The position numbers were made by a program, and so were the translations under genes. A stretch of 64,000 nucleotides of DNA, from assembly GCF_002355415.1 (NCBI RefSeq), contig NZ_AP014936.1, forward strand, positions 1,178,001-1,242,000, in the 5' to 3' direction. This document shows positions 3,503 through 6,930 of the stretch, one piece after another (within the stretch, counting starts at the first letter, position 1; each line of letters starts with the position of its first letter). Below the pieces are notes generated by a model, which was not told the DNA's origin, searched no databases, and saw nothing but the letters and a program-made list of their open reading frames with translations. Origin of the DNA: Sulfurifustis variabilis (GTDB taxonomy: Bacteria; Pseudomonadota; Gammaproteobacteria; Acidiferrobacterales; Sulfurifustaceae).

Positions 3503-4519
3503 TCAATACACCGTCACGCGCGTGCGCGCCGTCCCCAGCACCTTTCCGGTCACCCAGTGCAGCACTTCCACGGTGACGTCGAACACGCCCGCCTGGGTCG
3601 GCGTGAACAGGCAGTCGTAGCGCTCGGCCGAGGACGCCTCGAGCGACTGCGCCTGGAACGCGCGCGGGAGGGGGCGGCCGTCGGAGGCGACCACGGTCGC
3701 CGTCAGCCCGCCGAAGCGAATCCGCTGCGGGTAGTAACCGGCGTTGATGTAGCGCGCGAGCAGCGTCTGTCCCCGGTTCATCTGCACCGCGATGCCCGGG
3801 GCGGTCAGCGCCGACTTCGCCCCGTCCACTCCCGTAATGATGAAGTACTTGGGGTTCAGGTCGTTCAGGCCCACGTCGGCGCCGCAGGTGCCGGCGTCGG
3901 CGCCCAGGGTGTGCCAGCGCGGGTCGATCTCGTCCGCGGCCCACACGGTTTCGAGATCGTAAGCCGGCCCGCCCGCGAACACGCGCTTCGTGCCCGGTGG
4001 GTCGTTCGGATCGGGCCTCGGATCGACGATGAGCCCGCCGTACATGCCCATCTCCGCGTGCAGCACCGTGTTCGTGTGGCAGTGATAGAAGTAGGTTCCC
4101 GCCTGGCTCGCCCGCCACTGGTACGTGTACTGGCGGTCGACGTCCCAGGACACGTGCCCGACCCCGTCGTTTTGCCAGCTCGGCTCGATGCCGTGGTGGT
4201 GGATGGTGTGCAGCATCATCATGTCCATGACGAGGCGCGTGTGCACGATCTGTCCTTCCGTCACGCGGATCGCTGGCGAGGGGAAGGGTTTGCTGCCCAT
4301 GCCGCCGCCCGCCGCGCGGTCGTAGAACCCCCAGATGCGCACGCTCTTGCCGTCGTCCATCTTCATCGACCCGTCCATGTAGACACCGCGATCGAAGAAC
4401 GCGTCGGGCGTGACTTTGCCGGGCGTGGCGGGGGAGGCCGGATAGGTATAGCAGCCGCCCATCATTCCGCCGCCGCCCATCTCGCCGTCCTTCTCGTAGC
4501 TCGAATGTTTCATCGTCAT
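3503..4519 (-). CDS. Multicopper oxidase, second half (carries HxHG and HCH-type copper motifs)
   Basis: This 338-aa cupredoxin protein lies 7 bp downstream of a second cupredoxin gene and is certainly co-transcribed with it. Near residue 105 it has HTIHHHG, the type 2/3 copper pattern. Near 146 it has FYHCHTNTVLHAEMGM, with the Cys, His and Met of a type 1 site flanked by the type 3 histidines. A third, ligand-free cupredoxin fold follows to the C terminus. The N terminus is rich in Met, Gly and His (MTMKHSSYEKDGEMGGGGMM), a possible copper-collecting tail. No signal peptide is visible, so export could depend on the partner. Multicopper oxidases oxidise Cu(I), metals or phenols with O2. Confidence 0.8.
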   Translation of the reverse strand: MTMKHSSYEKDGEMGGGGMMGGCYTYPASPATPGKVTPDAFFDRGVYMDGSMKMDDGKSVRIWGFYDRAAGGGMGSKPFPSPAIRVTEGQIVHTRLVMDMMMLHTIHHHGIEPSWQNDGVGHVSWDVDRQYTYQWRASQAGTYFYHCHTNTVLHAEMGMYGGLIVDPRPDPNDPPGTKRVFAGGPAYDLETVWAADEIDPRWHTLGADAGTCGADVGLNDLNPKYFIITGVDGAKSALTAPGIAVQMNRGQTLLARYINAGYYPQRIRFGGLTATVVASDGRPLPRAFQAQSLEASSAERYDCLFTPTQAGVFDVTVEVLHWVTGKVLGTARTRVTVY

Positions 4520-4526
4520 CGTCCCC

Positions 4527-5528
4527 CTACATGAACATGATGTCGGTCATGGCGCCGAACTGATACAAGCCGCCGCCGGCCGTCTGCGTCATCTCGTCGT
4601 GCAGATGCATCGGGTACATGCCGGTGGTCGCCGGGGGCCAGGCATCGGGCGGCGCCTGGAAGGGATAGATGACGTCGAGGCGTCCCATGTTGCTGGTGAT
4701 GCGGAGCGTGTCCTTTCTCCAGATGTCGGAGCGGACCTGGCCGTTTTGGGTCAGCCACTCGACGTGGTTGCCGTGCCAGTGGATCGAGTGCGCGCACAGA
4801 CCCGCGTTGAAGATGCGGATCAGGGCGCGATCGCCGACGCGGCCGTGCAGCGCGGTGCTCCGATTGGCCATCGCGTCGATGGCCGGATCGCCGGCGCCGG
4901 GCGCTCCCGGCGGCCGCGAGCTCTGCCCGTTGATGGTGAAGTAGCGCGGCTTGAACGCCGTCGTCGGCGTCGCGCCGGTGCGCACCGCCTCGTGCCAGGC
5001 GGGGTCGACGTCGTTCAGGATCCACGCGTACTGCTGGACGAAAGTCGGGCTCCCGGCATAGAGCCGGTTCGTCGCGCCGGCCGGCATGACCGCCAGCGCG
5101 CCGTGCAGGCCGAGCAGTCGATGATACGGCGCGTTCGATCCGTCGTAATAGAGGTAGGAACCCGCCGTCGGCGCCGCGAACTGCACGGTGACCGTTTCCC
5201 CCGGCGCGATCGGTCCGCTGTCGACGACGCCGTCGATGCGGAAGTTGTGGGTCCGGGAGAGCGTGTTGGTGACGTTCACGACGAGCGTGTCGCCCTCCAT
5301 GGCCATGAGGTGCCGCCCGGGAACGGCGAGCGAGGACGGCGAATCGCTGTACCCGCGAAAGTAAACGTCCTTGCCGTCGGGCTGAGTGATGTATCCGTCG
5401 GTGATGTAAAGCGTGGCCGAGACCGTCTTGGCTTCGGAACGTGCCGTCCAGGCGATGAGTGCTCCCGTACCGGAAAAGGCAGCGGCGATTCCGGCCGTGC
5501 CCGCCTTGAGGAACGTTCTGCGTTTCAT
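4527..5528 (-). CDS. Tat-exported multicopper oxidase, first half
   Basis: The 333-aa protein opens with a Tat-like signal (MKRRTFLKAGTAGIAAAFSG), so it should be folded and cofactor-loaded before export to the periplasm. The first cupredoxin domain has lost the usual histidine pairs; the expected HxH position reads YDG in GSYLYYDGS. The C-terminal domain keeps HSIHWHGNH near residue 244 and YPMHLHDEMTQT near 306. It therefore supplies only part of a copper centre, and the downstream gene supplies the rest. A good ribosome site, GGAGAAG, sits 2 bases before the ATG. Split versus natural two-subunit enzyme is discussed in the findings. Confidence 0.8.
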   Translation of the reverse strand: MKRRTFLKAGTAGIAAAFSGTGALIAWTARSEAKTVSATLYITDGYITQPDGKDVYFRGYSDSPSSLAVPGRHLMAMEGDTLVVNVTNTLSRTHNFRIDGVVDSGPIAPGETVTVQFAAPTAGSYLYYDGSNAPYHRLLGLHGALAVMPAGATNRLYAGSPTFVQQYAWILNDVDPAWHEAVRTGATPTTAFKPRYFTINGQSSRPPGAPGAGDPAIDAMANRSTALHGRVGDRALIRIFNAGLCAHSIHWHGNHVEWLTQNGQVRSDIWRKDTLRITSNMGRLDVIYPFQAPPDAWPPATTGMYPMHLHDEMTQTAGGGLYQFGAMTDIMFM

Positions 5529-5796: not shown

Positions 5797-6930
5797 ATGC
5801 AACGCAATCTCGTGGTGTGCTGCGACGGCACCTGGAACACGCCGACGCAGAAGGACCGCGGTCTCGTCGTACCGTCCAACGTCGTGAAGATGTCGCGCGC
5901 GATCGACGACTCGGACCCGACGCGGCAGCGCATCTACTATGACACCGGCGTCGGCACCGGCCGGGGCATCGACAGGTGGTTCGGCGGCGCCTTCGGCGTC
6001 GGGCTGACCGACAACATCCAGCAGGCATACCAGTGGGTCGCCGACGAGTACCGCGACGGCGACCGGCTCTACCTGTTCGGCTTCAGCCGCGGCGCCTACA
6101 CCGTGCGCTCGCTCGCCGGCCTCATCGGTCGCTGCGGGTTGACGCCGGTCGGGGATGCGAAGGCGGCCCGGAAGGCGTACGACCTCTATCGCCAGGCATC
6201 GGACGACCGCCGCCGGGCGCTCGCCGACGCGTTCAAGGCTGGGCAGCGGGAGGTGCGGGTCCACTTTCTCGGCGTCTGGGACACGGTCGGCTCGCTCGGC
6301 GTTCCCGCGCTCTCGCGCTACGGGCTGCTGCGCAAGACGGTGCGCCGCCTCGCGCGCGGCTCGAAGCTCGCGCACGGCTTTCACGACGAGAATCTGGGAC
6401 GGCACGTCGCGCACGCGTATCACGCGGTGGCGATCGACGAGGAGCGCGGACCGTTCGCGCCGAGCCTGTGGAAAACGGAGGGCGCACCGCGCGACAACGT
6501 CGAGCAGGTGTGGTTCGCCGGCGTGCACTGCAACGTCGGCGGCGGTTACGTCGACGCCGGGCTGTCGGACCACGCGCTCCTGTGGATGGCGGCCAAGGCC
6601 ATGAAGGCGGGGCTCGCGCTCGACTACCGCTACCTGGCGATGCGCGTCGACCCGAACTGTCACGGCGAGCTCCGCGATTCGAAGACGCTCGCGTACCACC
6701 TCATTCCGGATCACGAACGCGAGATCGGACTGCCGAACACCCTTAACGAGCGGATCCATCGCAGCGCGGTTTCGCGGATGCGCCATCCGACCAACGGCTA
6801 CCGCCCCCGCAGCCTCACGCGCGCGCTCGACATCGGTGTGCCGGTCACCGACGAGGGGCTCGATCTGCTCGAGCGCATCCGCGCGGCTCTGTACCCGGAG
6901 CCGCCCGACATGCCGAAGAGGGCGGCATGA
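5797..6930 (+). CDS. Tle1-like / DUF2235 alpha-beta hydrolase
   Basis: This 377-aa protein belongs to the DUF2235 (T6SS phospholipase Tle1-like) family. It starts with the typical VVCCDGTWNT strand and has the nucleophile elbow GFSRGAYTVRS near residue 95, a GxSxG serine hydrolase site. Further motifs are GVWDTVGSLG near 160 and the histidine-bearing VGGGY segment near 248. No signal peptide and no VgrG, PAAR or immunity-type partner is present nearby, so a secreted-effector role is not supported here and a housekeeping lipase is equally likely. Shine-Dalgarno: AAGGGAGGCACGCG. Its stop overlaps the next start (ATGA). Confidence 0.85.
   Translation: MQRNLVVCCDGTWNTPTQKDRGLVVPSNVVKMSRAIDDSDPTRQRIYYDTGVGTGRGIDRWFGGAFGVGLTDNIQQAYQWVADEYRDGDRLYLFGFSRGAYTVRSLAGLIGRCGLTPVGDAKAARKAYDLYRQASDDRRRALADAFKAGQREVRVHFLGVWDTVGSLGVPALSRYGLLRKTVRRLARGSKLAHGFHDENLGRHVAHAYHAVAIDEERGPFAPSLWKTEGAPRDNVEQVWFAGVHCNVGGGYVDAGLSDHALLWMAAKAMKAGLALDYRYLAMRVDPNCHGELRDSKTLAYHLIPDHEREIGLPNTLNERIHRSAVSRMRHPTNGYRPRSLTRALDIGVPVTDEGLDLLERIRAALYPEPPDMPKRAA

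Follow-up and report, generated by a model that had tools for sequence, protein, structure and literature searches.

Among the described relatives of the proteins discussed here, 3G5W (Nitrosomonas europaea) and 2ZWN (from a metagenome) are presumably type C two-domain multicopper oxidases, and MnxG has six domains in one chain. In the accessible part of a 2026 paper, the multicopper oxidases are classed as two-domain trimers and as three- and six-domain monomers, and each trinuclear copper site of the two-domain enzymes is described as common to two protomers (PMC13151041). The 64,000-nucleotide stretch of the Sulfurifustis variabilis genome analysed here (the window) contains two adjacent genes, A and B, whose products are each a two-domain cupredoxin protein with only part of the copper motifs of a multicopper oxidase. 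We consider it quite probable that A and B form a heteromeric four-copper oxidase that arose from a duplicated two-domain oxidase as the two copies lost complementary ligands, and that B is exported by hitchhiking on the twin-arginine translocation (Tat) signal of A.

Both genes are on the minus strand and were delimited by open reading frame (ORF), Pfam and alignment. Gene A (4527..5528) encodes 333 residues and gene B (3503..4519) encodes 338, and Pfam found Cu-oxidase domains in both. Third codon positions have a GC content of 0.88 and 0.91 in the two genes, which supports their being coding. The ORFs are in different frames and separated by a 7 bp gap (4520..4526); a G-rich stretch overlapping the A stop codon could be the ribosome-binding site of B. 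A starts with MKRRTFLKAG, within a Tat-type signal region (MKRRTFLKAGTAGIAAAFSGTGALIAWTARSEA; 5430..5528) that is recognized by its hydrophobicity and by a Pfam TAT_signal match of 16.4 bits, under the cut-off of 22.7. The N-terminal part of B scores 0.1 in a 14-residue hydrophobicity window, versus 1.56 for A, and no start codon precedes the annotated one in its open frame, which leaves no room for a hidden signal. Both copper motifs of A are in its second domain: HSIHWHGNH (residues 247-255; 4764..4790) and PMHLHDEM (residues 306-313; 4590..4613), which hold putative trinuclear-site ligands. Both copper motifs of B are in its first domain: HTIHHHG (residues 104-110; 4190..4210) and HCHTNTVLHAEMGM (residues 146-159; 4043..4084), the latter with predicted type 1 (T1) ligands Cys147, His154 and Met159 and predicted trinuclear ligands His146 and His148. 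On this pattern, A would provide the non-T1 half of the trinuclear site, and B the T1 site and the other half. The initial annotation had given A a Tat signal and only these two motifs, B no signal and only the other two, and a spacing of 7 bp, and all of this was confirmed. In NCBIfam, no model matched A, B or a fused homologue (L055, described below) at its curated cut-off.

The division of the motifs recurs in homologues. We aligned jointly 99 distinct A-B pairs (114 pair entries minus 15 duplicates, six of which were checked individually and the rest by coordinates) and assigned T1 and trinuclear roles by the known family pattern. In A, His250, His252 and His255 are present in 99/99 pairs, and His308 and His310 in 98/99, the exception being L144. 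At the columns of these five residues, B has His in 0/95, 0/58, 0/95, 1/94 and 0/94 of the rows with a letter. In B, His104, His107 and His109 are present in 99/99 pairs and His146, Cys147, His148 and His154 in 98/98, with Met in 79 and Leu in 19 at the axial T1 column. A has His at the columns of B His104, His107, His109, His146, His148 and His154 in 81, 2, 1, 8, 4 and 4 of 97 rows, respectively, and at the Cys147 column it has Asp in 95/97 and Cys in 0/97. In every row of A or B, at most one of the partner's four trinuclear columns holds a His. Together the pair would have one complete T1 (blue-copper) site and eight trinuclear histidines, half of them in each chain, and the motif set of a four-copper blue oxidase (T1 and four HxH motifs) is found in the pair and in neither chain singly. 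Each protein appears to hold half of the site, so neither looks able to work alone; the initial annotation had already noted that neither has the full set of ligands. Recurrence in 99 distinct pairs puts the pattern beyond chance.

The first domain of A had also been described as having lost its histidines. At the columns of B residues 104, 107, 109, 146, 147, 148 and 154, the window A has H, R, D, Y, D, G and H. The description is right for the four trinuclear histidines, all of which are gone, but not for the T1-type histidines, both of which are kept; the Cys is replaced by Asp129 in a degenerate T1 region (Y127..R137; 5118..5150). Arg137 in this region is present in 73/73 pairs, near the Asp at the T1 Cys position and the mostly retained His (81/97). 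These Asp, Arg and His residues could possibly form a salt bridge or a different metal site. Another residue of interest is His255, the third His of HxHxNH (4764-4790), for which a trinuclear cluster has no obvious need.

The invariance of these histidines bears on what the pair does with them. B could be an electron-transfer T1 cupredoxin with A as a structural partner and no trinuclear site, for which only His104, Cys147, His154 and Met159 of B would be needed. The four near-invariant trinuclear histidines in B and four in A would be of no use to such a T1 site, and the two genes are naturally fused in two loci; we regard this explanation as most unlikely. A copper nitrite reductase-like enzyme split in two was considered as well, given that the A profile scores best against nitrite reductases (2dv6, 3.8e-24). 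Copper nitrite reductases have T1 copper and one type 2 copper held by three histidines, and they are not known to have HxH pairs. The A-B pair has the HCH of B and four HxH motifs, all near-invariant, and the B profile has as its best match the multicopper oxidase 3g5w (4.4e-29). The nitrite reductase was therefore rejected on its ligands, as an explanation with hardly any probability left. The A and B profiles also match each other. This cross-match and the two-domain enzymes that both match fit the proposed origin from a duplicated two-domain oxidase with complementary ligand loss. Trees of A and B are partly congruent: 33/57 of the A-tree splits with support of at least 0.9 are also in the B tree.

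The two genes are nearly always found together. A profile search with A in named bacterial and archaeal genomes gave 193 confirmed loci, and the locus counts refer to the best 80 of these 193. B is directly downstream of A in 74/80 loci (73 by script, and L072, with a long open frame, by eye). Natural A-B fusions in one frame account for 2/80, L055 from a deltaproteobacterial metagenome genome and L103 from Terracoccus sp. 273MFTsu3.1. In the remaining 4/80 (L042, L050, L094 and L096), the contig ends 20-457 bases after A, too short for a whole B. The initial annotation had asked whether homologues are fused or always separate; separate adjacent genes are thus the usual state and fusion the rare one. 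Record titles of the loci include Gamma-, Alpha- and Deltaproteobacteria, Nitrospirae, Actinomycetota, Chloroflexi, Bacillota (Neobacillus and Paenibacillus) and Candidatus Brocadia. With ORFs only 7 bp apart and in different frames, a single gene broken by a frameshift or sequencing error might be suspected in the window. However, the same split is found in many lineages with varied spacing, sometimes with both parts in the same frame around a stop codon, and A and B match two-domain enzymes separately. Because the split is conserved with varied spacing, a frameshift or pseudogene was ruled out, and we give it a negligible probability.

The distribution of the family was also examined in two draws of genomes, in which the best four candidates per genome were scored (five in the search for B), so the counts are lower bounds. 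In the class draw of 369 genomes, at least 29 A places were found at E<=1e-45, in at least 23 genomes, and 26 of the 29 have a B match directly downstream. Of the three unpaired places, two have a contig end 289 and 421 bases away, and the third is in genome G055. In the phylum draw of 398 genomes, A was found at E<=1e-45 in the window's own genome only. Phage records contained no match to A. The A family looks scattered rather than common. Some genomes have several copies of the pair: the window's own genome has a second at 3293806-3295759 of its contig, Skermanella aerolata has six (L061, L070, L073, L075, L093 and L099), and plasmids of Indioceanicola profundi have three (L036, L038 and L039).

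Export signals were judged by motif and hydrophobicity, with an arbitrary cut-off of 1.6, from every possible start codon of the 99 distinct pairs, and clades were taken from the trees. The A tree, the B tree and the tree of both joined all contain one clade of 21 pairs, with support of 1.0, in which A has no twin-arginine signal (L115 was assigned to it by tree). In this clade, a hydrophobic stretch lies within about 20 residues of a possible start in 21/21 B. In the other 78 pairs, A has the twin-arginine (RR) motif in 75 (74 by script and L077 by eye); of the remaining three, A is truncated by the contig start in L142 and L143, and its start is not settled in L037. The first script matches to RR in L058, L069, L082 and L102 were spurious, and a proper RR motif was found further on in each. 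Outside the non-Tat clade, B is signal-like in just 2/77 scored pairs (L091 and L109; L037 was unscored). Neither is convincing, and the hydrophobic stretch of L091 is taken as lying ahead of the real gene start, where the open frame overlaps A. An earlier table of 104 entries, which included some duplicates and used a 75-residue window that missed some N-termini, had B above the cut-off in 3/77 RR and 22/27 no-RR pairs. Both fusions have a single Tat-like signal, ahead of the A part. A twin-arginine signal on one partner only, the mark of a Tat hitchhiker, is therefore found in the window pair and in 75 pairs in all. This signal pattern is what transport of a folded complex predicts. The clade contrast and the single signal of the fusions make it unlikely that the heteromeric oxidase has a B that A does not carry through Tat, with B taking another route or the complex being assembled elsewhere. 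A B-like gene of G055 with a Tat lipoprotein-like signal of its own speaks for such a route, as it indicates that independent export can evolve.

Structure predictions are compatible with a copper cluster between A and B. The AlphaFold2 model of the L055 fusion (751 residues, 24 sequences) has a pLDDT of 85.7 and a pTM of 0.89, and its top two Foldseek matches are MnxG 9bxa (5.4e-28) and rat ceruloplasmin 5n0k (3.8e-26). In VIA-align, whose rows for the full L055 model concern mainly the B half, the B half superimposes on 3g5w over both domains (Z 24.0, rmsd 2.2, 259 aligned). A 396-residue fragment consisting of A domain 2 and B domain 1 has human ceruloplasmin 4enz as its best match (Z 14.2, 281 aligned), with residues 3-396 on residues 190-552, which we take to be ceruloplasmin domains 2 and 3. 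By pseudo-symmetry, the contact between these two domains corresponds to the domain 6/1 contact, which holds the trinuclear site of ceruloplasmin. None of the 50 matches listed for the fragment is a three-domain laccase that covers both A domain 2 and B domain 1. In the models, A domain 2 is placed beside B domain 1 roughly like consecutive ceruloplasmin domains, a predicted placement that would allow the cluster to form between them.

A number of observations weigh against the heteromeric oxidase. The models are of L055, a distant natural fusion, and not of the window's own pair; the full model fits its Foldseek matches loosely, with a TM to the query of about 0.5 and rmsd of 11.8 and 9.2 for the first two; and the fragment is modelled with moderate scores (pLDDT 69.6, pTM 0.68) and matches ceruloplasmin loosely (rmsd 4.5). 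Of the well-supported A splits, 24/57 have no counterpart in the B tree. An HCH is present in 52/99 A rows, in the loci listed as the MHCH form of the second A motif (4590-4613 in the window), so that about half of the A proteins retain a cysteine at a possible position for a second T1 site. The MHCH-type motifs have no T1-type histidine after the cysteine, and the HCH may have been left over from an ancestor whose two domains both had T1; the window A has no HCH, its motif being MHLH with Leu in that position. The contrast between Tat and non-Tat pairs represents a single switch on the tree, in either direction, and not many independent observations. Among the five neighbouring ORFs scanned in the window, there is no copper gene.

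Unpaired genes count on the same side. The A of G055 is followed by 660 bases up to the contig end, with no B among them, and of the 32 B places found at E<=1e-43 in the class genomes, 6 lack an adjacent strong A. Contig ends apparently cut four of these six (G335, G336:C211, G329:C92 and G177:C184). The other two are the tandem B-like genes of G055 (L155, G055:C80), the first of which starts at the contig end and the second of which carries the Tat lipoprotein-like signal mentioned above (SRREFLARPLSLAGIAATALASCGG), an exception to the one-signal pattern. Such places would suit an enzyme made of B alone, a homo-oligomer like 3g5w, with A as a derived chaperone or metal-delivery partner. So would the nearest solved relatives of B by sequence, 3g5w and 2zwn, two-domain oxidases that were solved as single proteins. 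This explanation has to account for the ligand columns of B domain 2, at which B has one His in total and A has His near-invariantly, and we consider it very unlikely. The initial annotation had stated that its proposal would fall if gene B alone proved to be a complete enzyme with its own signal in homologues. No such gene was found. The signal-bearing B of the non-Tat clade still lack the other half of the ligands and still follow A, and the signal-bearing gene of G055 has no second-domain ligand motifs, with no A in the stretch examined.

The two-subunit oxidase therefore remains our preferred explanation, and its earlier proposal is supported by the ligands, the pairing, the two fusions, the partly congruent trees and the fold models. 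A and B would be two non-identical subunits of a single enzyme. Domain 1 of B would bind the T1 copper by His104, Cys147, His154 and the axial Met159, and would contribute four trinuclear histidines, His107, His109, His146 and His148. Domain 2 of A would contribute the other four, His250, His252, His308 and His310. With its ligands divided between the chains in this way, the cluster would form only at the contact of A domain 2 with B domain 1. In the copper-loaded complex, electrons from a reductant would enter at the T1 copper of B and pass via Cys147 to the adjoining histidines, and O2 would be reduced to water at the A-B interface. By analogy, the enzyme would most likely work as other blue oxidases do, except that its trinuclear site would be common to two different proteins. 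A and B would assemble, already folded, in the cytoplasm before the complex passes through Tat on the signal of A alone. This hitchhiking, which had also been proposed earlier, is supported, short of proof, by the RR motif on A in 75 pairs, the single signal of the fusions and the signal-like B of the non-Tat clade. The ancestor would have been a two-domain oxidase resembling the homotrimeric enzymes with trinuclear sites between subunits; after its duplication, the domain 1 ligands would have been lost from A and the domain 2 ligands from B. Two protomers already share each trinuclear site in the two-domain class, according to the accessible part of the 2026 paper, so this would be a small step (PMC13151041).

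The surroundings of the genes provided some further information. SCO1/SenC is the commonest family among the downstream ORFs scanned at the loci (12/83, with 3 for the next family; 3/93 upstream), which supports a copper enzyme. In two loci on Arthrobacter and Paenarthrobacter plasmids (L037 and L040), A is near an Nramp/mntH gene; A and B overlap in L037, and only A was seen in L040. A manganese substrate was considered on this hint. No Mn or Nramp family is among the neighbour families listed, the best 25 per set of 95 and 77, and we therefore claim no substrate. The window's own neighbours, an ABC transporter, an anthrone-oxygenase-like protein, a 68-residue ORF with no match, a Tle1-like hydrolase and a DUF2254 protein, were of no use in assigning a function. 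The gene for the Tle1-like protein, which has a phospholipase domain (PF09994, E 1.9e-81), adjoins gene A in divergent orientation at 5797-6930. At its start, B has a Met/Gly-rich stretch with a Cys (MGGGGMMGGCYTY; 4451-4519), and similar stretches occur in L125, L127, L130, L131, L132 and L133. This N-terminus might be a copper binder.

Four divergent loci (L145, L147, L150 and L041, the last from the Cupriavidus metallidurans CH34 megaplasmid) consist of three genes, arranged B', A', C'. The motifs of B' are an HTIHWHG-like one (HSAHFHG in L147) and an HCH motif that ends in EHxxMGM, and those of A' are HPFHxHG-like and WHSH; C', the third ORF, shows cupredoxin-like stretches but none of these motifs. 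From their motifs, these loci look like a six-domain oxidase spread over three genes.

Taken more broadly, the A-B pairs may belong to a widespread and unrecognised class of heteromeric oxidases, with the O2 site between complementarily degenerate two-domain subunits. In this proposal, to which we give about even chances, the three-gene loci would form a ceruloplasmin-like six-domain ring with a single trinuclear site, and the contrast in signals would reflect assembly before export in the one-signal (Tat) pairs and after it in the two-signal pairs. The Tat and non-Tat pairs provide a natural test of whether assembly has to precede export. If the proposal is true, it shows an active site at an interface being divided by complementary loss after duplication. 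It would also mean that automated annotation takes two half-enzymes for separate oxidases.

Several known systems resemble the A-B pair in part. The heterodimeric laccases of Pleurotus have two different subunits, like A-B. In Pleurotus POXA3, a complete laccase forms the large subunit, and the small one is not known to be a cupredoxin. PaoABC resembles the pair in the Tat co-translocation of its partners, as described in the accessible part of its report (PMC4273604), but it is an aldehyde oxidoreductase and not a copper oxidase with an active site divided between partners. The iodide oxidase IOX of Iodidimonas, which we compared by description only, is a multicopper oxidase of at least two proteins (IoxA and IoxC) with SCO1/SenC genes in its cluster; in the accessible part of its report, all four copper regions are placed in IoxA alone, unlike in A and B (PMC9415286). 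MnxE and MnxF of the Mnx complex are described, in the part of the source available, as accessory proteins with no similarity to any characterised protein (PMC5622069). Our searches of the open-licence literature turned up no multicopper oxidase described as having its ligands shared out between two proteins. Ceruloplasmin and MnxG are the top structural matches of the fused homologue, and A domain 2 and B domain 1 lie loosely on ceruloplasmin 190-552, but ceruloplasmin has six domains in one chain, whereas here there are two domains per chain and four in the natural fusions. The type C two-domain oxidases have, like B, two cupredoxin domains with T1 in the first. Their chains are identical and each has both halves of the ligands, whereas here A has only the domain 2 half and B only the domain 1 half. 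If our proposal is correct, the heteromeric class sits between the homotrimers and the six-domain chains.

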